This document shows, piece by piece, positions 3,408 through 56,000 of a DNA stretch of 64,000 nt. A program made the translations under genes and the position numbers. Below the pieces are notes generated by a model. That model worked only from the letters and a program-made list of their open reading frames with translations. It was not told the origin of the DNA and did not search any database. Source of the stretch: Siphonodentalium dalli (lineage: Eukaryota > Mollusca > Scaphopoda > Gadilida > Siphonodentaliidae); the NCBI GenBank assembly GCA_032622095.1, contig CP136066.1, forward strand, positions 118,007,319 to 118,071,318, in the 5' to 3' direction. The first letter of the stretch is position 1. Each line of letters starts with the position of its first letter.

Positions 3408-4020
3408 TCATAGATGAGGATAATAGGTATACAGGGAGTTATTCTATGGTCATGAATGATGTGTTGGTATATAGGGAGTTCCCTGTTGGTAACGGTGGGA
3501 CGTATATTTATATATGTTGTGGATGTGTTATCATTGGTGGTGTATGGAGAGTAGGTTTAGTATCATGGATGGTGTGTATGAGTATGGCAAGTATGGAACT
3601 TATGAGTGGTCGTATGTGCGGATATTGGTATATCTGGAAGGGCTCACCATTGGTGATGTGCATATGTATACCTGGATTGACTCCATGGTCATGGGTTTGG
3701 CGAATAGGTATACATGTAGTGGCTGTATGGTCCACGTTGATGTGAATATGTATACAATGAGTGACTGTATGATCGTGAATGTAGTGAATATGTATACATA
3801 GAGTGACTATATGGTCGGGTGTAGGTGTATACCTGGTGTTCATGACTCGTGGCTGTATCGTCATTTGTGGTATGTACGGGTATAACCAAGTATGGCTGTA
3901 TGATCAGGTGTACTAGTACATGTACGTGTATAAAGTGGGTGACTATGTTGTCATTTGTGTGGTGTTTATGTACATATGGAGTGACTGTGGTAATGGGTGG
4001 GTTGTACATGTGTACCTTGG
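3404..4020 (-). repeat. 42-bp minisatellite, left block
   Basis: Degenerate repeats of about 42 bp built on 'gtgactatatggtcat' and 'gggtatacatg' blocks. Because 42 is divisible by 3, long frames stay open. On the minus strand, frames at 3508-3864 and 3689-4009 read as 14-residue units of the type I-H-I-H-x-x-H-D-H-x-x-T-x-C. The orientation is opposite to that of the larger block at 4100-5760. Confidence 0.8.
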
Positions 4021-4100
4021 GTGGCTATCGCTTTCCACAATAACTCAAGGATATGTTAATCAACAGAGAGGTCATGTCATATCGTGGAAAGCGATAGCCA
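4019..4100. repeat. Central hairpin of the fold-back element
   Basis: 'ggctatcgctttccac' at about 4022-4037 is the exact reverse complement of 'gtggaaagcgatagcc' at about 4083-4098, with a loop of about 45 bases. The minisatellite switches orientation here, so this is the symmetry centre of the whole element. Confidence 0.8.
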
Positions 4101-8231: not shown

Positions 8232-8399
8232 GGGGATAACAGTGTGGTGTTTTGTGATTTCGGAAAGGTACATGGCGAATATACTGTTGCAAATACCCGT
8301 TAATGGGCTCCGGCTCCGCCGTCGCTCATTAACTAAATTTTCCACAGTATATTCGCCCTGTACTTTTCCGAAATCACAAAACACCACACGGTTATACCC
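8232..8399. repeat. 168-base hairpin with near-perfect 56-base arms
   Basis: The left arm (8232-8287) contains 'tgtggtgttttgtgatttcg' and ends 'gcgaatatactgt'. The right arm (8344-8399) starts 'acagtatattcgcc' and contains the complement 'gaaatcacaaaacaccaca'. The loop holds a second small stem (GTTAATG ... CATTAAC) around a GC-rich patch 'gggctccggctccgccgtcg'. This could be a hairpin MITE. A folded RNA is possible but unsupported. Confidence 0.8.
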
Positions 8400-19420: not shown

Positions 19421-20439
19421 ACTAATTACTGACATGTATAATGACATAATTATATAGCAACAAATCATGGCAACATCATTGATGTTGAAATACTTGTAAG
19501 AAATACATATTGCAGACTGAAGATGCACGACAATCTGAAACAGGGGTGATAGAACAGGGAGGTTTACAGGGGCCCTGCAAATATTTGAGATTAGATTTGA
19601 TGCTGAAATTGCTGGGGTGAATTCGGTGTCAATACCAAATAGGATCCTTTATTATTTCTAATTATCCAGTGTGTCCAAATTGTTGGAAATTTTGGATAGG
19701 GTGGTGGTGATAAAGGTGTGATACATACATTTTATAGTGGAGCGACCAAATGCTATAAGTGGTGAGATACCCCTACCCTTGGTAGAACAAGTTCATACAA
19801 ACTTTTACTGGAAAGTAAATCTCTTATCATTTATGAAAATGATTCTTGGCCTTGCCGGATTTGGTGGCAGATATGTATGGTATTTGTACAATCATGGTCC
19901 AATCATTATAAAATACCTTAAATGGAGGGAAATGTTTTAAATCTTACTTTGGTATACGCATTTCTGTTTCAGAAATCGTCAGTTTACTGCCGGGTAAGCT
20001 TGTATTAAACTCTAGACATCATATAATATAATATTATATCAGCTCCTGCGATTAGCCAGTCAGCGTCGATAAATAGTGACGGTATATGAACCCATATTAG
20101 GTCAGTGACTCCATATGAAAACAATATTAGGTGCTTAATCCACCATCTTGTTTTTCAGAAATAAAAAACTCGCCTCGGGGATATGTTTGGTGTATTTTGA
20201 CGCCAAGAAAGGGGGTATCTGTCGGAAATCATTTTCTGCGAATTTAAAGACAGTACCATGTACCAAAGCCAGCATGCGATATATTTGAGAAATTCTAAAG
20301 AATTGTCCTACTTATGGTGATCAGCCATTGAATCATTGCATTGACTTCAACATCCATGGCGTGTCGCTGTGACTTTACATAAGTTAATGGCCATAGACGA
20401 CACATTTAACTTAGAAAATTGTCAGCAATTTCCTTTAGC
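19421..20439. other. Non-coding DNA
   Basis: No supportable gene. A small AT palindrome ('atataatataatattatat') lies near 20019-20037. Confidence 0.4.
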
Positions 20440-21460
20440 ACGGGCTGCAGGTCATACCTTTGGTCGGATCATTTTGAAATTTGTCATGGGTGTTGACATT
20501 GAAATGTAGATGGGAACGAGTCATTTTGGGGTCAATCGGCAAAAAAACATGGCCACCAGTGGCCATCTTGGGTTTCAAAATTCAATCCATTAGCACGGGC
20601 TACAGGTCAAGAGTGTTCGTCTGATCATCATGAAATTTGGTCGGATCATTATGAAATTTGTCATGGGCATTGACATGTAGATGGGAAACGAGTAATTTTG
20701 GGGTCGTTCGGCCAAAAAACATGACCACCAGCTGCCATCTTGGATTTTACTCTTTGCATGACTAAATACTTTGGCACGGCTACAGGTCGTACCTTTGGTC
20801 GGATCATCATGAAATTTGTCATGGATGTTAACAATGACATGTAGATGGGAACGAGTCAATTTGGGGTCATATGGCAAAAAAACATGGCCACCAGCGGCCA
20901 TCATGGGTTTCAAAATTCAATCCATTAGCACGGGCTACAGGCCAGAGTGTTCGTCTGATCATCATGAAATTTGTCGTGGAAGTTAATATTGACATGTAGA
21001 TGGGAACGAGTAATTTTGGGGTCATTCGGCCAAAAAACATGGCCACCAGCAGCCATCTTGGATTTTACTCTTTGCATGACTAAATACTTTGGCACGGGCT
21101 ACAGGTCGTACCTTTGGTTGGATCATCATGTAATTTGTCATGGATGTTAACAATGACACGTAGATGGGAACGAGTCAATTTGGGGTCATATGGCTAAAAA
21201 ACATGGCCACCAGCAGCCATCTTGGATTTTACTCTTTGCATGACTAAATACTTTGGCACGGGCTACAGGTCGTACCTTTGGTTGGATCATCATGTAATTT
21301 GTCATGGATGTTAACAATGACACATAGATGGGAACGAGTCAATTTGGGGTCATATGGCTAAAAAACATGGCCACCAGCAGCCATCTTGGATTTTACTCTT
21401 TGCATGACTAAATCCTTTGGCATGGGCTACAGGTCGTACCTTTAGGCCAAAAAAAACAAA
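20440..21460 (+). repeat. F1 array, six units
   Basis: The 'gatgggaacgag' block occurs at about 20509, 20680, 20844, 20999, 21163 and 21327, a spacing of 155-171 bp. Each unit also carries 'aaaaacatggccaccag', 'gccatcttgg', 'tttactctttgcatgactaa' and 'cacgggctacaggtcgtacc'. The last two units are almost identical to each other, indicating recent local duplication. The array ends abruptly in T-rich sequence. Confidence 0.85.
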
Positions 21461-25036: not shown

Positions 25037-26089
25037 TAGGGTCCTGCGAATTGGAGATTTTGATCGAATCGAATATCGATTTGAATCATATCTGTATGTT
25101 GTATTCTCAATTGGGCATGTTTTGTCAACGATTAGACGATTTGTAAAACGTTCCATGAACTACATGCACGAAGTTAAATCATAACTTATGTGGCGATGAA
25201 CCGTCATTTGCAATACTATTAACTTCAATTGATAATTGATTAAAACGTCCATGCGGCCGTCACGATGATTAATATATAACCACTAAACGGATTATTGGAA
25301 CTAAAATCACGCAAAATTTGTACAGATTGCATGTGCATGCAAAATTGCAAATCAACATTCGGAATCACCCGTTGTTATAAACTTGAAGATGCAACAACAG
25401 TCGCAGTGTAGCCTGTTTATGTAGTGATGGATGCTTCTTGGACAGATGATTCCATAGATGGGTCGTTGTCCCAGATGCTTGCGATTTATACACCATGTTG
25501 CATTCATCACATGTGTAAGCCTGCAGCTTTATCATGTTTAAAATAAACATGAATAACGGATGACGTTTTGTCAAGACATTAGTGTCTAAGAACGCTCCGA
25601 AATTGAAAGTAAACTTCAAAAGAAAACACCGCCAAAATGCAGTTTACGATGCCGGGAACACGTGTTGTTTAAATTCTGAGCTATATTACATAACGCGGAA
25701 TCTGAGACGGATAGACCGCTAGCGGTTGATCAGTCTCATAGCTATTATAATTTACGCGCGTCGTCGGTCCATCGGCGATCTCCGAGCTTTTGGGGACAAT
25801 GTTCAAAGATAGAAATCAGACGTATTTAGTTGTCCTATAGTGGCTAATTGCTGTTTATACTTATATTTAATATATATAATCGCGATGTACAATGAGAATT
25901 ATAAGGTACATATATACATCATTTTCTGTAATTAAATGGCACAAAACAGCTAAAATTGACGTGTGTACCTGCCCGTAAACAGACTACTTTTCCATCAGTG
26001 TATATTCGAAATTTCGAGTTGGCAATTTCGAATCGAATTCGAATCGAATTTGACTTTCGAATCGAATATCGAATATTCGCAGGACCCTA
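25037..26089 (-). mobile_element. hAT-like DNA transposon, internally decayed (1.05 kb)
   Basis: Perfect 8-bp target duplications CTCACATG lie at 25029-25036 and 26090-26097. The terminal inverted repeats match for 15 bp (TAGGGTCCTGCGAAT) and continue as imperfect 'gaatcgaat' runs. Eight-base duplications with TA/CAGGG ends are typical of hAT. The only coding trace is a BED-type zinc finger on the minus strand. The catalytic domain is absent, so the element is non-autonomous. Confidence 0.9.
25365..25619 (-). pseudogene. BED-type zinc-finger remnant of a hAT transposase
   Basis: An 84-residue frame has Cys37-x2-Cys40, then T-T-T-H-L-W-N-H (His58) and His63 followed by P. This matches the C-x2-C ... 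H-x3-5-H spacing and the 'HL..HP' wording of BED fingers, which bind DNA at hAT ends. There is no RNase-H-like or dimerisation domain. The frame sits inside the hAT element at 25037-26089 and is read toward its left end. It is most likely a relic of the N-terminus of the transposase. The start codon is uncertain. Confidence 0.6.
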
Positions 26090-28582: not shown

Positions 28583-29437
28583 TTATACCCCCTGTTTTGC
28601 ACCTGTCTGCGTGCGTCCATGCGTACGTGCATGCGTGCGTACGTCCGTCCGATGTCTGTTCATGTCATAACTTGAATAGTAGTGCTCGGATCTCAATGAA
28701 ATTAGGTATCACTACTATGAGGACATTCGCATTAAATAGAGGGTTCCATCGTTTTGTTCGGATTTTCCATTCTAGAGTTATTCATCTTTGTTTATCTGGA
28801 AATGTTGGCTTTTTGGTCCGTCTGGTGTCTGTTCATGTTACAACTTCAACAGTTGTGCTGGGATCTCAATGAAATTTGGTATGGATGTTCACAACTATGA
28901 GGACATTAAATAAAGGGTTCCATCATTTTGTTCGGATTTTCCATTCTAGAGTTATTCATCATTGTTTATCTGGAAATGTTGGATTTTTGGTCCGCCTGGT
29001 GTCTTTTCATGTCATAACTTGAACAGTAGTGCTCGGATCTCAAAGAAATTTTGTATGGATGTTCACTACTACGAGGACAATCGATAGAGGGTTTCATTGT
29101 TCTGTTCCGCTTTTCCATTCTAGAGTTATGCATCTTTGTTTATCTGGAAATGTTGGCTGTTTGGTCCATCTGATGTCTGTTCAGGTCATAACTTGAATAG
29201 TAATGCTCGGATCTCAATGAAATTTTGTATGGATGTTCACCACTATGAGGACATTTAATGACACATTCAACTGTTTTGTTTTGGTTTTTTGTTCTATGGT
29301 TATTCATCTTTGTTTATATGAAAATGCTGATTTTTGGGTCCATCTGTCTGTGTATAGCAGTCATAAGTTATAGATATGCCCACACTAGGCGGTATGCCAC
29401 AAGGGGGTATGCACCGGACGACAGTCGATCTCTTGTT
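28583..29437 (+). repeat. F6 tandem-core element
   Basis: The head 'ttataccccctgttttgc' is followed by an alternating 'gcgtgcgtccatgcgtacgt' tract and 'gtccgtccgatgtctgttca'. Four units of about 175 bp follow ('cataacttgaatag', 'gtgctcggatctcaatgaaa', 'tccattctagagttattcat', 'tttatctggaaatgttgg'). The tail is 'aagggggtatgcaccggacg' and 'tctcttgtt'. Downstream sequence to about 29650 is shared with 31440-31735. Confidence 0.75.
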
Positions 29438-29658
29438 ATACATGTTATAATATATGTTTTCCTGTGAGAGCCAATCCTGTTTTACTATAAACATATTGAT
29501 TTAATTCATCTAAAAAATTCCCAAGTGAATGATAACATTGATTACCGGTAACTGTAATATTTCATGAAGGCTTAGCATCAAATGATTGTTTATAGACTAG
29601 TTCTCATCTCCCTCCACATTTATGGGTGAAATGAGCAACAGCAAATACCTCCTCAATC

Positions 29659-30920
29659 AGCTGAGAAATATTTGAAATAAAAAAATAGGTTATTGTAGAA
29701 ATTTCAAAAATATATCTTGCAAGTGCAAATGACAGAATTCAGAGGAGAGAAATCGGGCTATTTTCCTATAACCAAACACAGAGTTGGGCTCCACTCAATA
29801 TGAAAATCATGTTACGTATCCAAATTTGTCATTTTTTTTAAGTTTCCCAGTTTTGTAAAATAATTAAACCTTCAATTAAACCTAAAATGTCACATTTAAC
29901 ACAGGCTACACTGGCTGTTATGCCCCCACAGATACTTATTTTTCTATTTTTCAGAACCCCCCTCCCCCTAGAACCCGATAAATTGTGTACTGCTAACTTT
30001 ATAATAGTGGCCATCTTCCAAAATGGGTCAAAATCAGTTATTTCCCATGAAATCGTTCTTTCGGTATATTATAGAGTTAGATACTTTTAATAGTGGGGTC
30101 CCTTAAGGGTTGAATTGTGACTTTCATGACTAAAGCATGAAACTGTTAATTAGTTATAAGGGAAACTTGTTTGGATATAATCAGGTTTCCATGGCAATGA
30201 TATCATATATTTGAAGAAAAGTTAAAAAATGCCAGTTGGAAACCAATGAGCATTGTATTTGAAGAAATGTTGTTAACTCATAGTGCCATTAATGGTCCAT
30301 CAAACAGACACTAGGACATACAGTGTCAAGGTCAATTGCTATGTTAAAAGTCATTGGAAAAAACCCTGTAATTTTGGCCCATTTTTGTAAAAGTCAGCAA
30401 AGTTTAAAGGTATATATCTCATGACTGGCTTGTCGGTTGCAATAATCCTGACATATGAATAATGAGCCCTCACCTGGGCACCCCCTCCAAAAAGTTTCCA
30501 CTATAATTAAGCAATACGCATATGTGAAGTTTCTTACTTTAGTTACTAAAGTCACAAACTTGTATTTAATTTGTCTGATGGTCTCAAAAGGGTAATGCAT
30601 CTTGACTTTATACATGTATGTACTGGACCACAGATAATATAAAAAGATAGTACTTAGAATGTGATAATATTTGTCCCCCTGACATTTCGTCGGAGGACTA
30701 TAGTATTGACCCTCGTCCATGTGTGTATCCGTGTGGTCATCTGCCTGAAACTTTGTCCAAGCCTGTATATCAACCAGCATTGGAACCTGTGATTTTGAGT
30801 TCGGTTGGACTCATTTTGGCATAGTTATTGCCCTTTTTCGACATAGAATCGTACATCCAGGGACGCATCTTTTGTCCGAGGCTGTATTCTGTCATTTTCC
30901 AGTAAATATTTAGCTCAACT
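29659..30920 (+). repeat. Dispersed 1.26 kb repeat, copy 1
   Basis: Matches 41325-42579 almost base for base. Both copies start 'agctgagaaatatttgaa' and end 'taaatatttagctcaactt'. The ends are weakly inverted with respect to each other (AGCTGAG / CTCAACT). Near 30773-30915 it contains one degenerate F5-like core unit. Matching small frames (29887-30090 +, 30394-30780 -) have no recognisable domain and are probably non-coding. Exact limits are uncertain because an F1-type head abuts the right end of both copies. Confidence 0.75.
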
Positions 30921-31735
30921 TTACAAAGTAACAATAGTGCTCGGATCTCAAAGAAATTTTGTATGGATGTTCACTACTAAGAGGGCATTCAATAGAGGGT
31001 TACATCGTTTTGTTCAGATTTTCCATTCTAGAGTTATTCATCTTTGTTTATCTGGAAATGTTCGCTTTTTGGTCTGTCTGGTGTCTGTTCATATCGTAAC
31101 TTCAGCAGTTGTGCTGGGATCTCAATGAAATTTGGTATGGATGTTCACTACTATGAGGACAATCAATAGAGGGTTTCATTGTTCTGTTCCGCTTTTCCAT
31201 TCTAGAGTTATGCATCTTTGTTTATCTGGAAATGTTGGCTGTTTGGTCCATCTGATGTCTGTTCAGGTCATAACTTGAATAGTAATGCTCGGATCTCAAT
31301 TAAATTTTGTATGGATGTTCACCACTATGAGGACATTTAATGACACATTCAACTGTTTTATTTTGGTTTTTTGTTCTATAGTTGTATTCATCTTTGTTTA
31401 TATGAAAATGCTGATTTTTGGGTCCATCTGTCTGTATATAGCAGTCATAAGTTATAGATATGCCCACACTAGGCGGTATGCCACAAGGGGGTATGCACCG
31501 GACGACAGTCCATCTCTTGTTGTACATGTTATAATATATGTTTTCCTGTGAGAGCCAATTATGTTTTACTATAAACATTGATTTAATTCATCTAAAAAAT
31601 TCCCAAGTGAATGATAGCATTGAATAACTAATATTTCATGAAGGCTTAGCATCAAATGAGTGTTTATAGACTAGTTATCATCTCTCTCCACATTCATGGG
31701 TGAAATTAGCAACAGCAAATACCTCATCAATCAGC
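30921..31735 (+). repeat. F6 array, second partial copy
   Basis: Starts inside an F6 unit ('agtgctcggatctcaaagaa'), carries about three units and the tail 'aagggggtatgcaccggacg', then about 200 bp of the same flank as 29437-29650. It lacks the F6 head. The arrangement F6 / dispersed repeat / headless F6 indicates a duplication with the dispersed repeat between the copies. Confidence 0.75.
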
Positions 31736-33259
31736 GGCATCAGTTTGAATACTTCTTCAATTTTTTGGTCAGACAACCAATAAAGTGTAATAATACCTCA
31801 AAACCTACACTGGCCCTGGGAACCCGAAGCTTTTACAAGAAGGCCTAAGCTATTTGTTGTCAGATTACATGAAGCAATGTAGTATTTCACACCTGTTAAG
31901 GAAACGTCTTTATATTTACATACTGATAGAAGACATAGAAATGTAGGGCTGCACGGTATCCACCTTCACAATACCGACTACGGTATTAAATTCAATACCG
32001 CGGTATGACTAAATACCGTCAAGAATAATGTCCAAACATTTTGCTAGTTAAGATCCTTTGGAACATGCAGTACGCAATTCAATATTCACGTGTGAATGCA
32101 TTGTCACGCGGACACGCGAAAAGAAGACAACGCAATGCATATCGCTTGTGATCTTAACAATATGTGGGGTTCTACTGACGTCGCTTATGCAAAAAAAAAA
32201 CAAACAAACAATTAGTTCACAATTTTTATTTCATAACAAAGCATATTAGGGACCTTGTCCAATTCCGACGGAGTTTCCGTCGGTGATCGGAGCTTTTAAT
32301 CGGAGTTTTAATCGGAGTTTTCTCCCTCATCATCGGAATTTCTTAGATCGGAGTTTTTTCTCCGATCAAGAACTCCGATCAATTCCGGTGAAAATTCCGA
32401 TGAACTCTGAACAAAACTCCGATGAAATCAGAGTTTTTCTCCGATATGAAAACTACGATGTTAAAACTCCGATTTAATCAGATTTCATCGGAGTTTTCTC
32501 CGATATCAAAACGGCGATGTGATTTGAGTTTTGTGTAATAATTTCATTTTTATTTATGCCAAACTTCCTCTGAAAAGTTGAGAAAGTCACCAGAAAAAGT
32601 TGAACAGACGGTTCGTTTATGGGGAAATCCTTGTGATGAAGGGAATACACATCCCATCTCCGATTATAATTTAAACTTTTGCGGAGAAAACTGGAAAAAT
32701 CTAGCTTTAATATCGAGTAAATCATAACATTTTATTACGTGATTGTTGGTTGCGTCATTTTCAGTTTGTCGCTTTCGCAAAACACGTTGTTTATTTATCT
32801 GGCGCGATGGTATTACTCGTCTCTTAAAAATGAATAATCCCTACGATTCCCAATATCAATAAAAAATAAAAATAAATCCAACTTCCTTATTTGGGTGAGG
32901 CTTGATTCTGCCGTCACTGGATTGGTCCGGCTCTTCCATCAATTATACAGGCTCTTCCAATAACCTCCCGATTGATCCACTCTTCCGGTTTGCAACACAA
33001 CACACACACGTGGTTTTCACTCGACCGAAGTTGAATTAAGAATCGCAAAGTTGGTTCAAACGATATAATTATTCAGAAAATGGCAACAAGAAATAGATCT
33101 TTGGTTTGTTCAGGCGGATTTGGAAACATTAGAAGACAATTTCAGTACTGATACCAGTACGTTGTAATACCTGGGTACCGGTATGTCATTGAAAATGGAA
33201 TAATTATTTGCACCCCCAGCCGGGATTGAAATGGATTATTCCATATTAAACTGCACTTA

Positions 33260-36200
33260 GGGGTCATCTCAAAACTACTATCGGGATCCCGATAAATATC
33301 CCGATAGGATCCGATAACTCAAAACTATCTTCTAAATTTCCCGATAGATTCCGATAGAGCGGTCACCATTTCCCGATAATATTCCGATACCGCATCTAAA
33401 TATTCCGATAACACGCTGATTTCCCGAAAAATTTCCGAAAGTAATGTACGTAGCGTATATATATTACCAACTTTCCGATAATTTACCCATTTATTTCAAG
33501 AACAATTAGGCCTATGTCTGTTTTGATAATCGACGAATCGAGCATGTTGTTTATGCTCGACGAATCGAGCATGTTTGTTTATGTTTCCGGTTCTATTTGT
33601 TGTCATTACTTTTGGATTCGTCCACAGCCTCCTTCGTAAGCATATTTTTATTGGGGTGGAAGCTTGTTTAAAAGAATTAAAACTCTACACGTTTCATGTT
33701 TTGATTCCAAGTTATTAAATTGTCCATTGAATTCTTTATGCATATTATTCATACAGCACATATCTCCTAGAAACGCTCTGAAGGAAACGTAAAAAGGAAT
33801 GGTTTCATAAAGGTAGTATCCCTTCAACACAAGCAATAGACTGTTCCAACGTGAACGTGATAAAAAATTGAAATATATATTTGATAAAACTCTTTTGGCC
33901 CTAGAAATGTTCTCAAATAAAACTGTCATTTGATTTGATTTTTTCCCTCATTCATCACAAGATCGAATAATATTTTATTTTAATACACTGAGTGAACAAT
34001 TTTGAGAATTCAATAAAGTTTTGATCGAAAAGTTCAACAACATTTTCGATTTTCTCTTCAGTTACACGTCCCAACGTCACGCCAATTCAGCCCAATATTG
34101 TGGGCACGGGGATTGGCTGGATTAGTACCCAAATAAATTATGTTGTTAAAGCGCATTAACAAATACATAATCTTGAGTATATTCTCCACACTATAATCGA
34201 AAAATACAAAGGAATGGACACATGATTCAATCCAAATTGTTTATTTACAAAACACTCCCGCCAAGAAACCCCCACTGATGACGTGCGCAAAAAATATGTA
34301 CCTACAGCAAACACGTGTTGGAAATTGGGGCGCACAATGGGGACTCATTTATCATGGCTATATCTATTACCCATTCGGTAATTCATAAATGACATTCATT
34401 GCAAATTCAAACAGAATATATCTTAGATTTAGTATTACTATCAATTTACCATTTATCGAATGCTGTCATTGAACTTATTGATCAGCTGATGACGATGAAA
34501 AAATCTAGGAACCTTGTCGACGTCATTGCAGCAATGATAAAATACTGTAGCACAAATTTATGTGCATCGGCCGTTTTGTTCTCTCGTTTGATTAATAAAA
34601 TTATTATTCTGCGCGCATTGACAATTATATAATCTTGAGTATATTCTCCACAATGTAATCTAAAAATACAAAGGAATGGACACACGATTCAATCCAAATG
34701 GTTTATTTAAAAAACACTCCCGCCAAGAAAGATCAAGAAACGCCCACTGATAACGATCGAGCAACAGAAATTTGTACCTGCGAACACGTAGTGTTGGAAT
34801 GTGGGGCGCACAATGGGGACTGTCATCTATCATGGCTATATAACTATTAGCCATTTGGTAATAAATAAATGACATTCATTGCAAATTCAAACATAATATA
34901 TCTTAGCTTTAGTGTTAGTATCAATTGACCATTTATCGAGTGTTTCCATTGAACTTATTGATCAGCTGATGACGATGAAAACACCTCGGACCTTGCCGGC
35001 GTCAGCGCAACAATAATAAAATACTGTATAGCACAAATGTGCATCGATCGGCCGTTTTGTTCTCTCGTTTGATTAATAAAATTATTATTCTCCGCGCATT
35101 AACACTGCCAAATACTCAAGTAAATTGGCCATATCATGATGTGAAAAATCAAAGAAATGACATTGTTTAACATTAGTTACTTTTATTTGAACACAAGAGT
35201 TCACGAGACAAACGCGGCTATTTTTAAATTGAAAGTGCGCATTAATTCCGAATAGTGCTGCATTTACCGCGAATTACTTATCGGCACTGTCTTGTCATTT
35301 TATATTGAATATGATTGCTCAAAATTTCACTAAGAGAAAGCACTTTTCTCGATCATAAGATACAATGTAGACACGAAAGAATTGTTTAATTTATTAATTG
35401 CACAAGATATGTGCGGTACGAATGTATTGACTGCAATGTCAAGGTCAAAAACCGGTGCGTTGTAAATTGAAGTAAACAAAAAAACACGTGCGTTGTAATC
35501 GATGGCACAATGTTGACTAGTTTGGACTAATAATGCAGTCAATTGTAACTGAATTTACACGTAACTATCCAAGAGTTGATAGGCCACTTGATGATTTATT
35601 TTATGTTTCATTTCACCACGTAGCCATGGCTTAAAACATTAATAAATCACTCAATTTCGTGATATGGTTTTCCGACAGAGAAATTGAAACTGAATGTCAC
35701 ATTGATCTGTTGATAAAACAAAACTTACCTTTCGTTTGTTTATTACATTTATTGTTATAAAATATAAATATAAAACCTACTAAATATTCACCATACTATC
35801 ATGCTTGGGGAGGGGGATTCACAACTCTGGATTTGTTTTTTTACTCCCAGTCCCCATCCATACAGATGAACATAATTTCATAAATCAGGAGCCACATAAC
35901 ATTTAGTAATAATACATGTTTTCCCCCAAAAACTTTGACGTCACCAGAAAGTTCTGTTGGCTGGAGGTAATATTACTGTTGGGTAAATGGTTAATATCGA
36001 AAGTAAACTAAATAAAAGTTAGCAAGACATCTTTTTGAAAGATAAAAATGACGAAATATAGGAGCAGGCCTACTACAAATAAATCGCATCGTGTTACCTT
36101 GACCTTGATGATGCAATCGTGAAATTCGACACTGTCAACATAATTAGGCTATGTTCAACTTATCGAAATAATCAATGCAGCATTATAATTAGTAGTAATT

Positions 36201-37743
36201 ACAGAAAACGAAATTAATGTAGAATATGAAAAGCAGCCCATGCACACATTTAATTGTCAGTTAAATGTTATGATTACTTCGCGTATTTATAACCTTTGCA
36301 CTGCAGATTTGTATGGAATTTTCCATTCATATTTCCACACGCTCTTTATTTACCATATTACGATTCATGAAAAAGTATGGAATATTACTGCTAAATGTTG
36401 CTAAAACTTTACATGTACAGCAGGACACCCCCCCCCCCCATATGTCATGTTTCGAATTTCTATAGCCTACTCTTGACTAAAGGGTAGAGAATCGTGTAGA
36501 TATTCATGGCGTGCATGATCGATCTACCCCCCCCCCCGAAACTGCATGACCATGCAGAATGTAGGCATAACAGCAAAATTTCCTGCTTAGGCTAAAGTTA
36601 AACCCACTGTGGATATATATTTTTCTTTCTACGGCTGTCTACTGGCGAGATTTGTTGTTTCCATGCATGTGCCGGTAAACAAAAATGCAATTGCCATGAT
36701 TGCGTTATAAAGCACATCAAATGCTGCATGGACATCGCACATATTCCAATATAAATTTCGCCTAGGCTATGTATATTCGGAATATAGGCCTACGTGTACA
36801 CAGGCCCGATATTTTTTTTAAGCTTGAGTTAAATTGTCCCATGTTTGAAATTGTTTTATAAATCCGTTCACTGTGTGAAATCTTCGAGACGTATTACTCT
36901 GCAATGCCACGTGTGTTGTTCCCAGAAACGTAAATATTGATGACCCCAATTCCTGGAATCGGGCTAAAAATAGAACATATACGACATCTCGTGTTAAGAC
37001 TGCACTCGATTGTGCATGCATTAATTGTGTCGTCGGCGATTCGCGATTAAATACAAATCTTTTACATTTGCCATAATATATGTATTTCTTTATTTTCTCC
37101 ATATTTAAAAGTCGGATGTATTTAAACATATTACAAACACAATTAAGCTTTGAAGATAGTAGCCGCTGCATGCAACGCCGAAATAAATCTTAGAATTTAA
37201 TCAATTGATGGATCTGTTCTATTTTTAGAAAGTGAAAGTAGCCACTTGCATTAAGGCCTATACTATACATATTTGGGTATGCTCCCCGTGAATTTATTTA
37301 TTGATTTTGAAGATTTCCCGATGGGTGGGGTGTATTGTCCAGGTAAAATACCGATATTGTACGTAGCACCCACTGATCACCACAGTATAACATATAATAG
37401 TTCTACGACACGTGCCCCCTGATACTTTAAAACTTTATACTAACGATTTCTCATGTTAGGAAACTATTAAATCAATAATAAAGATAGGCCTATAAAACAT
37501 AAAATCGCGATAAAAGTCCGGAGTAATCCCGATACAGAAACTTTCCAAACAACATGCGTTGTTTTCGGAATATGATACTCCGAAATGAAAGTAAACTCCG
37601 ATAGATCGAATCCCGATAGACTATGTAAATATTCCGATAATTTCCCGAAAAACGTTGCGTCATTTCCCGATAATTTCCCGATAACTGTATATATAACTAT
37701 CGGTATCCTATCGGGATCCCGATAGTAGTTTTGAGATGACCCC
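33260..37743. mobile_element. Harbinger-like element B (TTA target), innermost of the nest
   Basis: The terminal inverted repeats are perfect for 36 bp (starting GGGGTCATCTCAAAACTACT, then ATCGGGATCCCGATA). They are flanked by TTA at 33257-33259 and 37744-37746. Subterminal repeats read 'tcccgata' and 'ttccgata', analogous to but distinct from those of element A. At 4.5 kb it is long enough for genes, but none is recognisable. Minus-strand frames 36818-37171 and 33648-33929 have no known motif. It contains a 0.47 kb tandem duplication. Confidence 0.85.
34151..35093 (+). repeat. Two-copy tandem duplication (462 and 481 bp units)
   Basis: Unit 1 (34151-34612) and unit 2 (34613-35093) share 'taatcttgagtatattctcc', 'acactcccgccaagaaa', 'gcgcacaatggggact', 'cattgatcagctgatgacga'-type blocks and 'ggccgttttgttctctcgtt'. 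A third start ('gcgcattaaca') begins at 35094 and stops at once. Small indels separate the units, so the duplication is not recent. It lies wholly inside element B. Confidence 0.85.
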
Positions 37744-38428
37744 TTAGCGATATAAACTATATTTGCAACATCGTCGGATTCTGAGAATACCGTAAACCCA
37801 GTGTATTTCAAATCTTGTATGCACCCAATAATATACTTACCAGTAGATATCATATTCCACCGGTTCAAATCCTGCACGCATATAATTATACAGTCGACAT
37901 AAATTTCAACTCAGTATATTATTATCATATAAATTCATCTGATATTATAATTATTACGGAGATGTTTACGTCGACTGATAATTATAGGCCTATTTTAGCA
38001 TTGCGCGAATATGGTTTCTATTTATGGGGAGGTTATTTCCTCAGCGAAGCGGAAATGGCCGAGTCGCTGAGAATGGACGTAACATGTTACATGTCTTTCT
38101 CCGTTGTGTCTGGTATATATATAAACAATATACACGAAGAACCGAAACGACGATTTATTAAAAGCTCCTACGAAAATTCACGGGATCGGAGTTTTCCAAA
38201 ACATACCGCACTTGAAGAACGGGAACTCCGATATAAAACTCCGATTGAATCGGATGATTATACCGACGACACAGCGAAAAATCTCCGACGGAATCAGAGT
38301 TTTATACCGATACAAAAACTCCGATTGCCATCGGTATCGGAGATCGGAAATATCCATCGGAAACTCCGATTCCGACGGAAACTCCGTCGGAATTGGACAA
38401 GCTCCCTTATTAAAACAAAAACAGTAAA

Positions 38429-38661
38429 TTACATATTTGCCGCGAGAAACGACAACATATTGACCTTTTCTGTTTTCAGTCATGAATGCTTTGGTGCAAC
38501 AATCTGTCCCGACTTACTGATTAAGCGCTCAGAAGGCACACTTGTGGGCAAGTTGTGGCCCATATACATATACAGAGATATTTTCGCGCGAATTTGGATA
38601 ATGTTGGATACGATTTGCAATTCATTTTCCACCACTCCAATTGTCGTCAAATTGATGTCTC
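38429..38661 (-). pseudogene. hAT transposase C-terminal dimerisation domain, broken
   Basis: Reading the minus strand from 38640 gives L-E-W-W-K, then Y-P-T-L-S-K-F-A-R-K-Y. After a frameshift near 38550-38575 the reading continues T-S-V-P-S-E-R-L-I-S-K-S-G-Q-I-V, then an in-frame stop, L-K-T-E-K-V and L-S-F-L-A-A-N-M with a terminal stop at 38429-38431. This order (WW, PTL...A..YL, TSVPSER, L.PENV...FL..N) is the hallmark of the hAT dimerisation region. Two disabling changes and the missing catalytic core show it is dead. Confidence 0.85.
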
Positions 38662-39254
38662 TTGGTTTGTTTTCTATTTGTATTATACCATGAGGGGACT
38701 TATGTCCAGATTATACTAAAAAGGTCCCCAAGCAATACGTATTTATCCGTGGTGTCTCGATATTGGATAAACATTAGCACGAAAACAATTGTGAGAGTAT
38801 ACGGTAGTTTACATTTCGTAATTGTATGGATGGCGATCTAGTCTAATTATTGCTTTGTGTACACTAATTTGAACTGCATATGAGACGACTATAAACACAC
38901 ATCCATCAGCGTACAACGTGTTGGCACTGCCTTTGTGATAATTGATTTTCGCACTTTGCTGCTGTTACGCTTTGGGCGACTGGCTCGTTACCGTCTCGTC
39001 TCGCTGGTTCTCGTTTCATCTCGCTGGTTCTCGTTTCGTCTCTCTAGTTCTCGTTTTCGTTCATTACTTACAGGCTTTAGTGCCTCGAGTATGTATTTTA
39101 TTGACATTTGCTTTTGTAAAACCGACTAAAAGAAGAAAATATAGTCTGCGGCGGTATACCGACTATTCATGAAATCCAATACCGACTACATGGTATTAAA
39201 AACAAAACCGCTGTACGACTAAATACCGAAAAACCGTGAAGCCCTATAGAAATG

Positions 39255-41324: not shown

Positions 41325-42579
41325 AGCTGAGAAATATTTGAAGAAAAAAAAAACGTTTATTGTAGAAATTTAAAAAATATGTCTTGCAAGTGCAAATGAC
41401 AGAATTCAGAGGCGAGAAATCAGGCTATTTTCCTATAACCAAACACAGAGTTGGGCTCCACTCAATATGAAAATCATGTTACGTATCCAAATTTGTCATT
41501 TTTTTCAAGTTTCCCAGTTTTGTAAAATAATTAAACCTTCAAACCTAAAGTGTCACATTTAACACAGGCTACACTGGCTGTTATGCCCCCACAGATACTT
41601 ATTTTTCTATTTTTCAGAACCCCCCTCCCCCTAGAACCCGATAAATTGTGTACTGCTAACTTTATAATAGTGGCCATCTTCCAAAATGGGTCAAAATCAG
41701 TTATTTCCCATGAAATCGTTCCTTCGGTATATTATAGAGTTAGATACTTTTAATAGTGGGGTCCCTTAAGGGTTGAATTGCGACTTTCATGACTAAAGCA
41801 TGAAACTGTTAATTAGTTATAAGGGAAACTTATTTGGATGGGGTGCCCAGGATATAATCAGGTTTCCATGGCAATGATATCATATATTTGAAGAAAAGTT
41901 AAAAAATACCAGTTAGAAACCAATGAGCATTGTATTTGAAGAAATGTTGTTAACTCATAGTGCCATTAATGGTCCATCAAACAGACACTAGGACATACAG
42001 TGTCAAGGTCAATTGCTATGTTAAAAGTCATTGGAAAAAAACCTGTAATTTTGAAGTTTAAAGGTATATATCTCATGACTGGCTTGTCGATTGCAATAAT
42101 CCTGACATATGAATAATGAGCCCTCACCTGGGCACCCCCTCCAAAAAGTTTCCACTATAATTAAGCAATACGCATATGTGAAGTTTCTTACTTTAGTTAC
42201 TAAAGTCACAAACTTGTATTTAATTTGTCTGATGGTCTCAAAAGGGTAATGCATCTTGACTTTATACATGTATGTACTGGACCACAGATAATATAAAAAG
42301 ATAGTACTTAGAATGTGATAATATTTGTCCCCCTGACATTTCGTCGGAGGACTATAGTATTGACCCTCGTCCATGTGTGTAGCCGTGTGGTCATCTGCCT
42401 GATACTTTGTCCAAGCCTTTTAATATATCAACCAGCATTGGAACCTGTGATTTTTAGTTCGGTTGGACTCATTTTGGCATAGTTATTGCCCTTTTTGGAC
42501 ATAGAATCGTACATCCAGGGACGCATCTTTTGTCCGAGGCTGTATTCTGTCATTTTCCAGTAAATATTTAGCTCAACTT
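41325..42579 (+). repeat. Dispersed 1.26 kb repeat, copy 2
   Basis: Near-identical to 29659-30920. Near 41839 it carries an extra 14 bases ('ggggtgcccaggat'-like) absent from copy 1. These are the inverse of 'cctgggcacccc' near 42127, so this copy keeps a pair of inverted 12-mers and copy 1 has lost one. An F1 head begins at its right edge. Confidence 0.75.
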
Positions 42580-45500
42580 GTATTGCTATGGCAGTATGGG
42601 TTGGCATCTGTTGTCTGTCCACTGTCCATCCATCAACAATTTCCTTTGACACACCCTACAGGCTGCATCCCTAATCCGATCTTCACAAAACTTCATATGT
42701 AGCTTCACAGTGACATGTAGATGGGAGCTATCAAATTTTTCTGAATTTCGATGAAAAACTTGGCCGCCAGCAGCCATCTTGCATTTCAAATTTGAATCAT
42801 TCGGCACACCCTACAGCCCGTTTTTTTGGCCAGATAATTATTGGCTCAACTACTTTGTAAAGTTTGAGCTATTGCTGTGGGTTGGCGTCCAATCGTCTGT
42901 GCGTCCATCCGTCTGTTTAGGATAACCTCTAGATGGGAGCTATCAAATTTTAGCCATCGATTATTTCCGAAAATTTGTTAAAAAACATGGCGGCCAGCAA
43001 CCATCTTGGATTTTACTATTTGCATGACTAAATCCTTTGGCACACCCTACAGGCCACATCCCTCATCCGATCATCACCAAACTTCATATGTATCTTCAGG
43101 TGACCTCTAGATGGGAGCCATTGATTATTTCTGAAATTTTTTAAAATCATGATCGCCAGCAGCCATGTAGAATTTCAATTTTGAGTCCATTGGCACAGCA
43201 GCCTGCAGCCCGCATATGTTTAAGTAATGTTTTGTAAGTTTACAGGCTTAATTAGTATTACCTCTAGATAAGAACTATCGAATTTGAACAATTTTCAATT
43301 AAAATATGGCCACCAGCAGCCATCTTGTAGTTTGCTCTTTGCATGACCTCATCCCTAGTCCATTCATCACAAAACTTGATGTGCATCTTCAGGGTTAACT
43401 CTGAATGGGAGCCATCATTTTTTCCGAAATTCGTTAAAAACATGGCCACCAGCAGCCATTTTAGCTCAACTTTACTTGTAAAGTTTGAGCTATTACCATG
43501 TCTTGGTATCCGTCGTCCGTGTGTGCGTGTGTGGAGATTTCCATCAACAATTTCCATTAGCATGGCCTACAGACCGTATTGTTTGTCTGATCATTATGAA
43601 ATTTGTCATGGATGTTAACATTGACATGTTGATGGGAACGAGTCATTTTGGGGTCATTTGGCTAAAAAACATGGCCGCCGACTGCCATCTTGGATTTTAC
43701 TCTTTGCATGACTAAATCCTTAGCTTTGTTTGGATCATCATGAAATTTGTCACGGATGTTGACATTGACATGTAGATGGGAACGAGTTATCTTGGGTTCA
43801 TTTGGCAAGAAAAAATTTCCACGAGCAGCCATCTTGGATTTCAAAATTCAATCCATTAGCACGGTCTATAGGCCAGAGTGTTCGTCTGATCTCATGAAAT
43901 TTGTTGCGCATGTTAATGTTGACATGCAGATGGGAACGAGTCATTTTTGGGTCATTCTGCCATAAAATATGGCCGCCAGCATTTTACTCTTTGGCATGGG
44001 CTACAGGTCGTACCTTTACTCAGATCATTATGAATTTTGTCATGGCTGTTGACATTGACATGTAGATGGGAACGAATCATTTTAGGGTCATTCAGCCATA
44101 AAACATGGCCGCCGACAGCCATCTTGGATTTTATTCTTTGCATGACTAAATCCTATGGCATGGGCTACATGTCTTACCTTTGTCGGATCATCATGAAATT
44201 TGTCATGGATGTTAACATTGACATATAGATGGGAACGAGTAATTTTGGGATCTTTCGGCAAAACATGGACGCCAGCTGCCATCTTGGATTTCAAAATTCA
44301 ATTTATCATTCCATTTTTTGCTCATCATAAAATTTAACTTCTTCATGGACACTTTCATTTATTTCAAATTTTAATTTGAATCCATCATTTATTTCAAATT
44401 TTAATTTGAACCCAGCAGCCCGCATTTATTGGAGTAATGTTTTGGAAATTTACAGGCATGTTTAGGATCACCTACCTGTAGATGGGAGCTAAAATTTCTA
44501 GCGATTTTCGGTGAAAAACATGGCCACTGGCAGCCATCTTGAATTTTACTCTTTGCATGACTAAATCATTTGACACAGCCTCCAGACCACATCCCTCATC
44601 TTTTCGCCACCAAACTTTGGGGTGACCTCTAGATGGGAGCCAATGATTATTTCCGAAATCCATTAAAAAATATGGCCACCAGCATCCATCTTGGATTTTA
44701 CTCTTTGCAACTGGAGCCAAATAAATTTCACACTAGAGCCGTTGGGGGCTTTAATAATGTACCTTATGTTGACCTGTTCAGATTTTTCGTATATGTGTTT
44801 GCATTGTACGAGAAAACTATGGTTTGCCGATTGGAATGTCCCATTTCTGGTCAAAACAAACTTTATTGCCAAAGGTTACGGTAAAATATCGAAAGCGGTG
44901 ATAAACTCCTTATTGTTCAATCAACCGTGAGCACTACAAATCAAATTTTGTAAGAATAATTTGGATTTTTAAGTGCCGCCACCCTATATAATTATAAAAT
45001 TGCAGAGAGGGCAACTTAGCATTTATCGATACGCACTGGATGATTATGCAATTTCAGATGGATTTAGCAGGAGCGGTGCCCATCTCCCAGTGAACCTACA
45101 GGCCACATCGCTCATCCGATCGTCACCAAACTTCATAAGGATCTTCAGGATGACTTCTGAATGGGAGTCAATGATTTTTAGCTCAACTTTATTTTGTAAA
45201 GTTTGAGCTATTGCCATGGCTTTGTCGTCCGTGTGTTTGTGTGTGCATGTGTTCGTGTGTACGTAAGGCGTCAACAATGCAGGCTACAGGTCGTACCTTT
45301 GGTCGGATCATTATGAAATTTGTCATAGCTTAATTTTGGGGTCATTTAGAAAAAAAACATGGCCGCCAGTGGCCATCTTGGATTTCAAAATTCAATCCAT
45401 TAGCACGGGCTACAGGCCGTACTGTTTGTCTGATCATCATGAAATTTGTCATGGATGTTAATATTGACATGTAGATGGGAACGAGTCATTTTGGGGTCAT

Positions 45501-46270
45501 TCGGCCCAAAAACATGGCCACCAGCAGCCATCTTGTATTTTACTCTTTGTATGACTAAATTCTTTAGCACGGGCTACAGGTCGTACCTTTAGTCTGATCA
45601 TCATAAAATTTGTCATGACTGTTGAAATTGGAATGTAGATGGGAACGAGTCATTTTGAGGTCATTCAGACAAAAAACATGGCCACCAGTGGCCATCTTGG
45701 AATTCAAAATTTAATCCATTAGCACTGGCCACAGGTCGTACTGTTCGTCTGATCGTCATGAAATTTGTCATGGATGATAATATTGACATGTAGATGGGAA
45801 CGAGTAATTTTGGGGTCATTCGACCAAAAAACATGGCCGCCAGCAGCCATCTTGGATTTTACTCTTTGTATGACTAAATTCTTTAGCACGGGCTACAGGT
45901 CGTACCTTTAGTCTGATCATCATAACATTTGTCATGGATATTATTAAACAATGACATGTAGATGGGAACGAGTCATTTTGGGGTCATTCGGCCAAAAAAC
46001 ATGGTCGCCAGCAGCCATCTTGGATTTTACTCTTTGTATGACTAAATCCTTTAACATGGGCTACAGGTCCTACTTTTAGTCTGATCATCATAAAATTTGT
46101 CAAGAATTTTAATAATGATATGTAGATGGGAATGAGTCATTTTGGGGTCATTCGGACAAAAAACATGGCCACCAGCAGCCATCTTGGATTTAACTCTTTG
46201 TATGACTAAATCCTTTAGCACGGGCTACAGATCGTACCTTTAGTCTGATCATCATAGGTACATCACACAC
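42570..46270 (+). repeat. Large F1 region: several arrays with heads
   Basis: About 20 F1 units in four or more blocks. New blocks start with the palindromic head (tagctcaactttacttgta / aaagtttgagctatt) near 42835, 43458 and 45178, each followed by a 'gtccgtgtgtgcg'-like tract. Two unit subtypes alternate: 'gacctctagatgggagc' (42600-43450, 44430-44720) and 'gatgggaacgagtcatttt' (43560-44300, 45290-46260). Nearly every unit contains 'gccatcttgg'. At 44300-44440 a short 'tttatttcaaattttaattt' duplication interrupts the pattern. Confidence 0.85.
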
Positions 46271-47708: not shown

Positions 47709-49286
47709 CACGTTGAGTGCCGGAAATCAATTAGTAATCTCGCCAGTTTGCCAAATCGTGGCAAGATAGATACCCTTAGTAGACCATAATTTGGCTTCAA
47801 TGAAGTAAAAATTGGATGATGTCGCGACTTTAGATGACAGAAACGGCGATTGATAGTACTACGAGATAACTCGTAGCCGGCACTGGCGGAAGGAATTTGG
47901 GTATTCCCACCACCAGTGCCAACTACGAGTTATCTCGTAGACACAATTGGACACGTTTGAGCAACAAATATGAAGTAGAATGTAACCCAAACAAGTTAGT
48001 TTGGTGGTAAGCATATTTATTGAGGTGTGGGAGTCCTTGTGGTGGTTATAGCTCGTTATATAGTTAAATTGTGGCTGATGCACGGCGGAGCAAATTACTT
48101 ATATATATGAGCATGCATGCTACAGACAGCGAATCCGAAGTGGAATCGGGTGAACTTGTTTCCTGTGAGGATGAGTTTATTTCGTCCATACAGTAATGAC
48201 TACGAGCATGCATCTTCTGTTGTTTCGGGTATTGTAAGTTATCTCCCATTTAGCCTGATTTAGGCCTATGCTATAGGGTTCTAAAGTACAACCCAAAATA
48301 ATAGTGTTGGAAGAATTGTCAGCACAAAATTAAAACAACCATGCAGCAGTAGCCAAATAGATCCCTGCACATTCAGGAGTGTGCTACATGTAACAATTCC
48401 ATATAATCCATCCGTCTGGAAGTAAGTCACCCTTTACTGTAAACCTCTATGCTACACAAAATCATTTATCCGTACCTACGTAAGTAGAACAGTTCGGTGA
48501 ACTGCATGACGTCTAAAGTACGGTAATTTCTACGCTTTCCATTGTCCAACACGTTCGGAAGTGGGTAAAATGTAGTTTTGGGGAATAATTGTTCCGCTTT
48601 ACTTGTATTATAAATAATAAAATACCTAGCCCCCAAATGGAGCCGCACAGTGTATACAAAAACAACTGCTGTGTTCCCTAATAATGAGATAATGGTAGCA
48701 TCAATGCGCATATAACGTCATGGATTATCCGCTTATCTTGTGTTGGATGTGTCCACTCGCACTTGAGTGAGAGGGAACAGATTTGGCAGGCCTGTGTGAC
48801 GTGTGTGGGTGGTTGTGCAAAGTTTCAATGTGTTGAAACACAACGATGTAACCATTCCTCGAAACTGCCTTCGCATGTTTGTACATTGTGAATATCCACC
48901 CCCTGACTTTGTTTGCATGCGTGAACATTGTCAGTCTATTGAATACCAAAACCCCAGTCGAATTGCCCACACATGACTGCCTCTGGTGGTCACTCAGTGA
49001 GACAGTGTCAGCTGTATTCACTGTAGCTAGCTCACAACTGGACCATTTTGAGTAGAATATATGTGCTGATGGTGCTCACTTCAGTTGAACGATGTAAGGG
49101 GAGCCACACTATTTATTTGATAAAATCACTGTTCTGATGTTCCGAGGCGGGTTTTCGTGGTGTATCAACCTATTCCACGGCTTCCGTTTGTCAGTTAGAC
49201 AACATGGAAACGACTACGAGATAACTCATAGTGGCAACCTGCGAAGGTTGCGAACTACGAGATAACTCGTAGTGGCACTCAACGTG
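47709..49286. mobile_element. piggyBac-like non-autonomous element (TTAA target)
   Basis: Perfect 13-bp inverted ends CACGTTGAGTGCC lie directly inside TTAA on both sides (47705-47708 and 49287-49290). Subterminal DNA carries four copies of an 18-bp near-palindrome (CTACGAGATAACTCGTAG) at 47858-47875, 47923-47940, 49211-49228 and 49255-49272. The 1.58 kb length and lack of recognisable transposase motifs indicate a non-autonomous copy. A minus-strand frame at 48725-49021 (98 residues) and a serine-rich one at 48064-48249 may be transposase relics, but this is unproven. Confidence 0.8.
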
Positions 49287-52873: not shown

Positions 52874-53072
52874 GTGGTTTTGACAAAGAGTCTTTTCAAA
52901 TGACCATGCGCAGATGACCACCAGTCGAGCACCAATAGCCGTGTCCCACATACGCGGCGCACCAATGAGCATTCGCCAACATATACGATAATTTGTGCAC
53001 CACCGATTTGGGACACGCTTATTGGTGCCCGACTGGTGGTCATCTGCACGTGGTCATTTGAAAAGACTCTTT
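52874..53072. repeat. 199-base hairpin with 65-base arms (MITE-like)
   Basis: The left arm begins 'caaagagtcttttcaaatga' and contains 'cagatgaccaccagtcg'. The right arm ends 'tcatttgaaaagactctttg' and contains 'cgactggtggtcatctg'. There are only a few mismatches, around a loop of about 60 bases. No clear target duplication was seen. Confidence 0.8.
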
Positions 53073-56000
53073 GCCTGAAACAACTGAAGATTTTGCAATA
53101 ATATTATTTTATTTAAATAACACTAGATGATTACATGTATATACAGAAGATCCACAAATATTAATATCATGGAAATTAAAGATGTTCTGTCCGCATGGAA
53201 TATGCCTGAGATTTCAAATAATGTTGTCATATGAATTGCTTCAGATATCCTAAAGAGACAATTTGATAACGAAATGAGACGAAAGATACTAGTAACATAT
53301 GGCAATTTGTGCAAATTACAATTATACGCGCTGCTACCTGAGTCAGCCAGATTTGAACATGCAAAGTTTTATGTCAACCGATTGCATTATCGAGTTGGGC
53401 ATATCCAGTGCTCGTTTGGATATGATTTGCACACTTACAAAGCAGCCACCTCTATTATAGAGACATATACATGTATGTTAAAACAGCCACACAGCTAGTG
53501 GAACAGGTCAATAACGATCTTTGGCACATACAAACCCAACTGACGTACATATATGCAAGAGTGAACTACTACTATGGTAAGTATCCGAATCCGATAAAAC
53601 TGTTGACATTGAGAAAGTAAATGCTCATTTTTTTTCTCAATCGACATGCAATGTCAAATTTCCAAAATGGGACCGTGTTTCAACTTGACATCCATTTTGT
53701 GGTATACAAGTCAACGTTCTGCTTGGTGATGAAACTTTTATATTAGTACAATAAGAATTGAAGCTACAATGCCGACTAAATGTACATATTAAATCCTCAA
53801 TAACCAATGTAGGTGTCCATGGTAATGACTCATTAAACCCGCTTACACAAACCATCAAGCGATGACAACCGATTTAGAATCCTGATAAGTGTGGGTATAC
53901 AAAGAATGGCCAACTTAGTTTATATATCTCGTCAATGTTGTCAATGCGTACTGGGGTCATTGGCTTTCACGTTCAGTGGAGTGATGTTCCATTGAAATAA
54001 CCGAAACAAATCTCAAATAAACCTGACATAATACGTATCGGTGTCGTTATATTCTCGCAGCTGCTATGGTCACATCAAACGTGGATTTCTGCTTATTTTC
54101 TTAAGCAGTTCATTTGAGTATTTGCTTAGCAGTACTTAATTCTACGCCGCTTGCTATACGCGGTTGCAGGTGTATTAATAATTTTATTGAATACACATTG
54201 ACGACCAATAGTATAATTATTGCCCTGCTAATGTACTATAGATCATGTATGTGTGAGTAGTGGCTTATGACTTCGGCGAGTTACAGTTGTATATATATGC
54301 CTTCGCTTCCATATTATTTTATATCTTCCCGGCTGTCCAGAATTCACGTTGCTATCACAATATATTTAAACTCATTATATGCAGTCAGTATTTAACTTCA
54401 TACAAGGCATTGGTCGTTTTAAATAATATCAAGTTACTTGGAGCTCACCTCAAGAATGTTGCACAGAACCAACTTTCAGCGTTTGGTTGGAACAGGTTGA
54501 ATATTATCAAAACTGAACCCTGATTTGTAAAATTTTGCTAATGCTTTAAATGATAACGGTAAGTGTGAGGCCTGGGTATTGATTGTGATAAGTCCCATGA
54601 ATTTTGGATGCATGAAAGTTGGTCTCCCACTATCGCAAGACTCTCCGTCACACGTACACAACTATGATAATAACGTACAGTACCCGAATGGGATAAAACT
54701 ATATCATCCAATTTATATATCAGTATGGAGCAATGTAGGCAATTATCCAAAGATGAAAAGTACAAGGATTAGAAAGCCACACAGTTAGAAGACGTGCTCA
54801 AAATTTCATTTACTCAGTTGCTCATGCATTAGAATGATGCTTATCATACTAAAGTTGTCCCTTTCGCTGATGCTGATCCATTTCAACCAACGGGATGACA
54901 ACTCGTTGGTCACATGTTACCAGCCATAGCCGCAGAATTAGTTTTCTGATCAAAATAGAGTATATCCGCTACAGGTGTATTGTAAGACATTCTCGAGAAA
55001 TATACTAGCCGTGGAGTACTTTTAACACAAACAATAAGTAGCAACTCCTTTGCACGATGGCCAATTTTCTACAATGGAACAACCTACATGTGTACTTATC
55101 TGATTCATGATTCTGTTAATTGTCCCCAGGATACATTTTACGATATGCGTGAAACATTTATATGTGTCTGACCGAAAGCATATATGCAAGCATGCAATTA
55201 TCACAAATATCAGATAATGTACATGTACATAGGTGTGGTAGTTATTGTGTGCATTCATCTAAGTAGACGTCCCAGAAAACAATTGATTTTGAATCCTTAT
55301 GTTTAGCTTAATATTGAGGAATTTGTAATGGGTCGGTATATTTTGAGTAAGTTTACCTTGTGAGCACCATACATGTACAATCAAACCAGGTGCCATCGTT
55401 TCATGTGGCGACGGTCCTATATTCGACAATGACACACGTTCTTGTCAATTTATTGTCGTTGGATTGAATGTGTGACATATATAGACAATCGCAGTTGGAC
55501 AATTGATGGCTGTTGGACCTATTTGCTCATGATATAGATTCTACGGCGACAGGTGGCAAGTCATATAGTAAACTTACACATAGTATCTCGCACATATGAA
55601 ACTTCGAAAGTAGCAACACCCTTTGCTTCAAGCATATTAAATTAGTAATCTCTCCACTTTCTTATGTGTACACCTGGTAGGAATTTAGATCGAGATACTT
55701 CATGAGTTGAAATATGGTACGTGTAAAATTACACACAAATAATGCAAACATGTTTTCCCTTTGAAAACCAGTTAAGTGTTACATTAATAAATCGATCTAG
55801 TCTAGACAAAGGTTATGCGATTAAAGTTAATTTGTCTTCAAAATTGTCGATTCTAACTCATCACCTTATTAAATCGAAAAAAGAAATATTTCTTATAATT
55901 TGAATTTGGTCCCAATATTAATAAAATTCATCCAGTTTTCAATTATATATACCCATGCCATTTGTGAATTACTTGTGATAAACAATTACGTGTTGGGAAC

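Follow-up and report, generated by a model that had tools for sequence, protein, structure and literature searches.

A nest of three cut-and-paste DNA transposons, one inside the other, lies in the 64,000-nucleotide stretch of Siphonodentalium dalli DNA that was analysed (hereafter the window); it is well preserved and looks real. With their ends read and aligned, a hAT element (31944-39246) encloses a second element, A (32249-38406), which itself encloses a third element, B (33260-37743). Such a three-level nest with intact target duplications had been put forward in the original prediction, and the aligned ends and flanks agree with it. On balance, we judge it probable that, within the nest as described, A and B are non-autonomous elements of Harbinger type that were moved in trans and whose subterminal arrays serve as binding sites of a partner protein. 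The elements, their duplications and their ends are as follows.

31936-31943 and 39247-39254, no strand: left and right copy of the hAT target duplication TAGAAATG, read and aligned in the flanks
31944-39246, minus strand: hAT element, ends 13/14, transposase remnant on the minus strand
38429-38643, minus strand: remnant of the hAT C-terminal dimerisation region, split over two frames (38566-38643 and 38429-38551) and interrupted by an internal stop
32249-38406, no strand: element A, TTA duplication at 32246-32248 and 38407-38409
32249-32283, plus strand: left inverted end of A (34/35), with the palindrome CCGACGGA-GTT-TCCGTCGG
38372-38406, minus strand: right inverted end of A; a palindrome with an 11-bp stem, ATTCCGACGGAGTTTCCGTCGGAAT, starts inside it and extends a few bases beyond
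33260-37743, no strand: element B, no protein recognised, TTA duplication at 33257-33259 and 37744-37746
33260-33294, plus strand: left inverted end of B (35/35), with the perfect palindrome TATCGGGATCCCGATA
37709-37743, minus strand: right inverted end of B (35/35); an 18-nt perfect palindrome starts inside it
34086-35159, no strand: tandem duplication in B, unit of about 462-481 bp, 85% over 498 columns

With its inserts the hAT element spans 7303 bp and without them 1142 bp; A measures 6158 bp with B and 1671 bp without it, and B is 4484 bp long. The hAT ends, TAGGGCTGCACGGT and TAGGGCTTCACGGT, agree at 13 of 14 bp. As the 8-mer TAGAAATG is present six times in the window, its weight as a duplication comes from lying flush with these matching ends; eight bases are the longest symmetric reading of the duplication and the one that goes with matching TAGGGC ends. 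The two ends of A match at 34 of 35 positions, in an alignment that extends to 45 columns with one gap, and those of B at all 35. Inverted ends of 36 bp had been proposed for both elements. The inverted ends are confirmed, but at a length of 35 bp, one base of the duplication having been counted in because TTA and its complement TAA have the outer base in common.

For the duplications, the boundaries were moved by up to two bases on each side and symmetric readings were recorded. Only the 3-bp TTA gives symmetric ends in both A and B; A alone also allows a symmetric 2-bp AT or 4-bp TATT, and B alone a symmetric 5-bp CTTAG. The 20-base junction words expected of empty sites are absent from the window. 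Searching the window for inverted pairs that are 30 nt or longer, 90% or more identical and within 12 kb recovered A, B and several other inverted structures; 20 windows simulated with a first-order Markov model contained no such pair.

Provided that the ends are real, the nesting gives the insertion order hAT, A, B. The same relative time order had been predicted, and it is supported by the flush ends and the duplications. The hAT element was the first arrival and has since decayed; as the flush ends and duplications show, A then entered a TTA that lies some 20 bp past the stop codon of the hAT transposase, and B entered one within A. It may be objected that a TTA is just 3 bp long and that the DNA is A + T-rich, so that the flanks could be coincidental and A, B or both could stem from an assembly join or a rearrangement and not from unit insertion. 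This appears extremely improbable, as in both elements the TTA is flush with near-perfect inverted ends, as no simulated window (0/20) held a comparable inverted pair, and as A and B both lie between hAT ends that carry an 8-bp duplication. Read as successive unit insertions, the nest puts three families of this genome in a clean relative order, and A and B offer two well-defined end sets usable for locating autonomous relatives. Otherwise it is ordinary transposon layering, an example of a documented kind.

Coding capacity of the nest

That the outer element is a hAT element, as had been predicted, is borne out by the match to the dimerisation region, the 8-bp duplication and the 13/14 ends. 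Read through with X at the breaks, the remnant matches the Pfam family Dimer_Tnp_hAT at E 2e-12; taken singly, the upstream piece reaches E 1.2e-7 and the downstream piece E 0.0023, which falls below the curated cut-off. Compared with the Hermes transposase, the remnant yields E 2.4e-6. The single frame 38483-38710 alone has neither a Pfam nor a PDB match. The element is decayed and oriented to the minus strand, its remnant being frameshifted and interrupted by a stop. Its final stop codon (38429-38431, minus strand) lies about 20 bp from the target duplication of A at 38407-38409, in line with the predicted position next to the A target site. With the hAT superfamily (Hermes-like C-terminus) it shares the 8-bp duplication, the short inverted ends and the C-terminal dimerisation region, the last of these as a broken remnant only. 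It differs from that superfamily in that nothing but this C-terminal remnant is recognised and in its length of 1142 bp once A is set aside, from which we infer that internal deletion removed the rest of the element.

The Pfam scan covered every stop-free stretch of 45 amino acids or more in the nest, 63 in total: 36 from B, 10 from A, 11 from the hAT element and 6 that span boundaries. Of the shorter stretches it took in only the pieces of the hAT remnant. None of the 63 stretches has a credible match, the best E-value being 0.0035. Twelve weakly matching families (E 0.0035-0.21, one stretch each) were dismissed as chance, given 63 scans. Neither a transposase nor a Myb-like gene was recognised by Pfam in stretches of this length in A or B, and for the 36 stretches of B this agrees with the earlier statement that no protein is recognised there. 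As no protein was recognised in either element, A and B are read as non-autonomous, and none of the three elements appears able to move by itself. Rfam at gathering thresholds gave no match, and a search for tRNAs (ARAGORN, bacterial code) found none.

A stop-free frame of 302 codons (37785-38690, plus strand) spans the boundary between A and the hAT element and is longer than any frame in 300 simulated windows (maximum 275); the length of its A part, 207 codons, was reached in six of these 300. Neither Pfam (at E 0.1) nor PDB (at E 1) gave a match for the frame, and its codon positions are without strong bias. As a gene it was rejected, given the lack of Pfam and PDB matches and its course across an array of A, the end of A and the antisense of the hAT remnant. 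It is probably non-coding.

Arrays and palindromes in the ends of A and B

The motif CCGAT, or ATCGG in reverse, forms arrays near the ends of both inner elements.

32286-32504, no strand: left subterminal CCGAT/ATCGG array of A, mixed orientation, two more sites at 32660 and 32968
38185-38370, no strand: right subterminal CCGAT/ATCGG array of A, mixed orientation
33289-33479, plus strand: left array of B, nine plus-oriented CCGAT sites (spacings 12, 10, 30, 10, 22, 11, 21, 70), one reverse site at 33280
37529-37723, plus strand: right array of B, seven CCGAT sites, likewise plus-oriented, two further inward at 37318 and 37351, two reverse at 37699 and 37710

Counted in both orientations and compared with 500 simulations, the left end region of A holds 15 sites (mean 2.7, maximum 9), the right one 11 (mean 3.1, maximum 11, so that the observed count was reached), the left one of B 10 (mean 1.8, maximum 8) and the right one of B 11 (mean 2.0, maximum 6). 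The middle of B has 5 sites, the simulated mean being 4.6. As a density, the four end regions carry 14.8-22.0 sites per kb; the middle of B has 1.4 per kb, and the remainder of the window 1.25-1.50. The subterminal repeats of A and B had been described as analogous but different, and the counts agree: TCCGAT occurs 23 times in A and 7 times in the B ends, and CCCGATA is absent from A and found 11 times in the B ends and once in the middle of B. Together with the surrounding bases the core reads CTCCGAT in A, and CCCGATA and TCCGATA in B. The end regions of B contain 18 forward and 3 reverse motifs and A contains 14 and 12, respectively; the two arrays of B are thus in direct orientation to each other although the ends of B are inverted.

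The palindromes in the A and B ends resemble each element's own motif and lie at about equal depth. When the bases of the 36-nt ends were shuffled 20000 times, stems of 8 bp or more with a loop no larger than 4 appeared in 21 shuffles for A and in 29 for B. Folded as single-stranded DNA, the 62-nt ends gave z-scores of -2.98 (A left), -4.81 (A right), -1.84 (B left) and -3.92 (B right), with 1, 0, 11 and 0 of 200 shuffles, respectively, folding equally well; the result for the left end of B is weak. Helical spacing was assessed in eight site sets. For the two from the left array of B, 1/2000 and 0/2000 random placements were as good (best period 10.3 bp), and it was not significant in the two sets of the right array of B (0.26 and 0.086) and the four sets of A (0.11-0.71). 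This is a hint of helical spacing in the left array of B, which local unit duplication could produce.

Kinship between the A and B end sequences was not detectable, as 4727 of 5000 shuffles scored at least as high as observed. The Repbase terminal rule, as worded in an excerpt of PMC4455052, groups elements by equal duplication length and an alignment of positions 1-11 with at most one mismatch. With four mismatches over these positions, counted by eye, A and B fall outside this rule, which does not show that their superfamilies differ. The layout of motif and palindrome gives a modest lead on the recognition of such ends.

Classification of A and B

From the TTA duplications and the GGG-starting ends, A and B probably belong to the PIF/Harbinger superfamily. 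Harbinger elements are characterised, in the part of PMC4423477 available to us, by a TAA/TTA target and ends starting with GG, the consensus in grasses being GG(G/C)CC. Both A and B show the 3-bp TTA/TAA duplication, and the GGG start of their ends fits the consensus; bases 4 and 5 deviate, with one mismatch of five in the left end of A (GGGAC), two in its right end (GGGAG) and two in B (GGGGT), relative to a grass consensus that may not be that of the host. The earlier label of A and B as Harbinger-like therefore holds for the duplication and the GGG ends but not for bases 4 and 5. As the consensus is not strictly matched and neither a transposase nor a relative stands behind an assignment, A and B are not assigned as members of PIF/Harbinger.

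Plausibly, A and B work like Harbinger elements. Most likely they would have been moved in trans by a transposase of PIF/Harbinger type together with its Myb-like partner, a DNA-binding protein, the genes for both lying elsewhere in the host. The subterminal arrays of the CCGAT type and the palindromes of the motif in the ends would most likely be binding sites of this partner. According to the accessible section of PMC2836001, the Harbinger ORF1 protein, which has a Myb-like domain, binds the ends (shown on zebrafish Harbinger3N_DR) and interacts with the transposase. This would give the arrays and palindromes a natural role, as the ends of A and B could, by analogy, bind such a Myb-like partner.

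The signals behind this classification are short ones, bases 4 and 5 deviate from GG(G/C)CC, and the A and B ends are not alike above shuffles (4727/5000 score at least as high), all of which would suit a real nest in which A and B belong to another or an undescribed superfamily that also duplicates 3 bp. We regard this as unlikely, since two TTA duplications alongside ends that start with GGG are what is usual for Harbinger elements (PMC4423477) and since no signal specific to another superfamily was noticed among the features of A and B considered here. Compatible with either a Harbinger origin or another superfamily is the idea that A and B represent a single lineage split into two subfamilies, both served by one CCGAT-core binding protein. 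The density of the core at their ends, far above that of the flanks (14.8-22.0 versus 1.25-1.50 per kb), and the presence of a motif palindrome at similar end depth in both speak for it. Yet the 36-nt ends are not similar above shuffles, the surroundings of the core differ (CTCCGAT versus CCCGATA), so does the orientation (18 forward and 3 reverse in B versus 14 and 12 in A), and positions 1-11 show four mismatches, which leaves a common lineage possible but doubtful. Still less probable, and in our estimate a long shot, is that A and B are branches of an unrecognised eukaryotic TTA-duplicating group whose CCGAT-core ends, each made up of a head-to-head palindrome within the inverted end and an array (in B, one with a direction and helical spacing), would be read by a dimeric DNA-binding partner.

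Taken as Harbinger-type elements, A and B share with non-autonomous PIF/Harbinger (Tourist-like) elements the TTA duplication, the GG-starting inverted ends and the lack of recognised coding capacity. Unlike Tourist MITEs, given as 100-500 bp in the accessible section of PMC2836001, they are long (A 1.67 kb, B 4.48 kb); they also start with GGGAC/GGGAG (A) and GGGGT (B) instead of GG(G/C)CC, and no autonomous partner is known here. Ends composed of a palindromic motif and subterminal repeats are likewise described for Muta1 of Aedes aegypti, a MULE, which in the excerpted text (PMC5225508) duplicates 8-9 bp and carries ends of 145 bp and regular repeats of 12 bp, whereas A and B have TTA and irregular arrays. 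A TTA-flanked DNA transposon within another is described for carrot DcSto1 with a Tourist-like MITE inside; in the text seen of PMC3695323 this is one insert in one host element, compared with three levels and longer elements here. Both nests and palindrome-plus-array ends are thus already documented, as far as these parts of PMC3695323 and PMC5225508 go. The coral MITEs with TTAA duplication, piggyBac-like in the portion of PMC2872659 seen, are not relevant to A and B. A word search of the literature recognised no paper as describing the A or B ends, though words cannot match sequence families. The exact B end pattern had no match in viral_contigs and genome_contigs, and the exact A end pattern none in viral_contigs; these collections, viral and prokaryotic, say little on the host.

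Other structures in the window

A foldback-like element with long inverted arms lies at 1893-7608, with outer 569 columns that are 98.6% identical and then about 73-91%; it has a possible 3-bp TAT duplication and His/Tyr/Thr-rich open frames in its interior. Three short near-palindromic stretches (8232-8399, 47859-47940 and 52884-53073) are possibly MITEs, with no clear duplications by eye. At 28838-31735, two copies (92.9% identical) of a repeat of about 820 bp with 174-bp tandem units flank a 1.26-kb segment, which recurs alone at 41325-42579 (94.7%); no target duplication was seen by eye in the flanks. Arrays of a unit of about 144-164 bp that recurs across the window are found at 20431-21445, 43544-44302 and 45331-46256, and they appear to resemble the core tandem repeats known from Helitron-like elements in marine invertebrates.

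In the flanks of the nest, the Pfam scan took in 139 of 160 stretches that are 67 amino acids or longer; the other 21 measure 67-88 amino acids. A BED zinc finger at 25368-25643 (minus strand; Pfam E 3.8e-5, above the curated cut-off) is possibly derived from another transposase. Two ORFs outside 31944-39246 match the mitochondrial carrier family (best E 4.3e-11) and are probably exons of a host gene.
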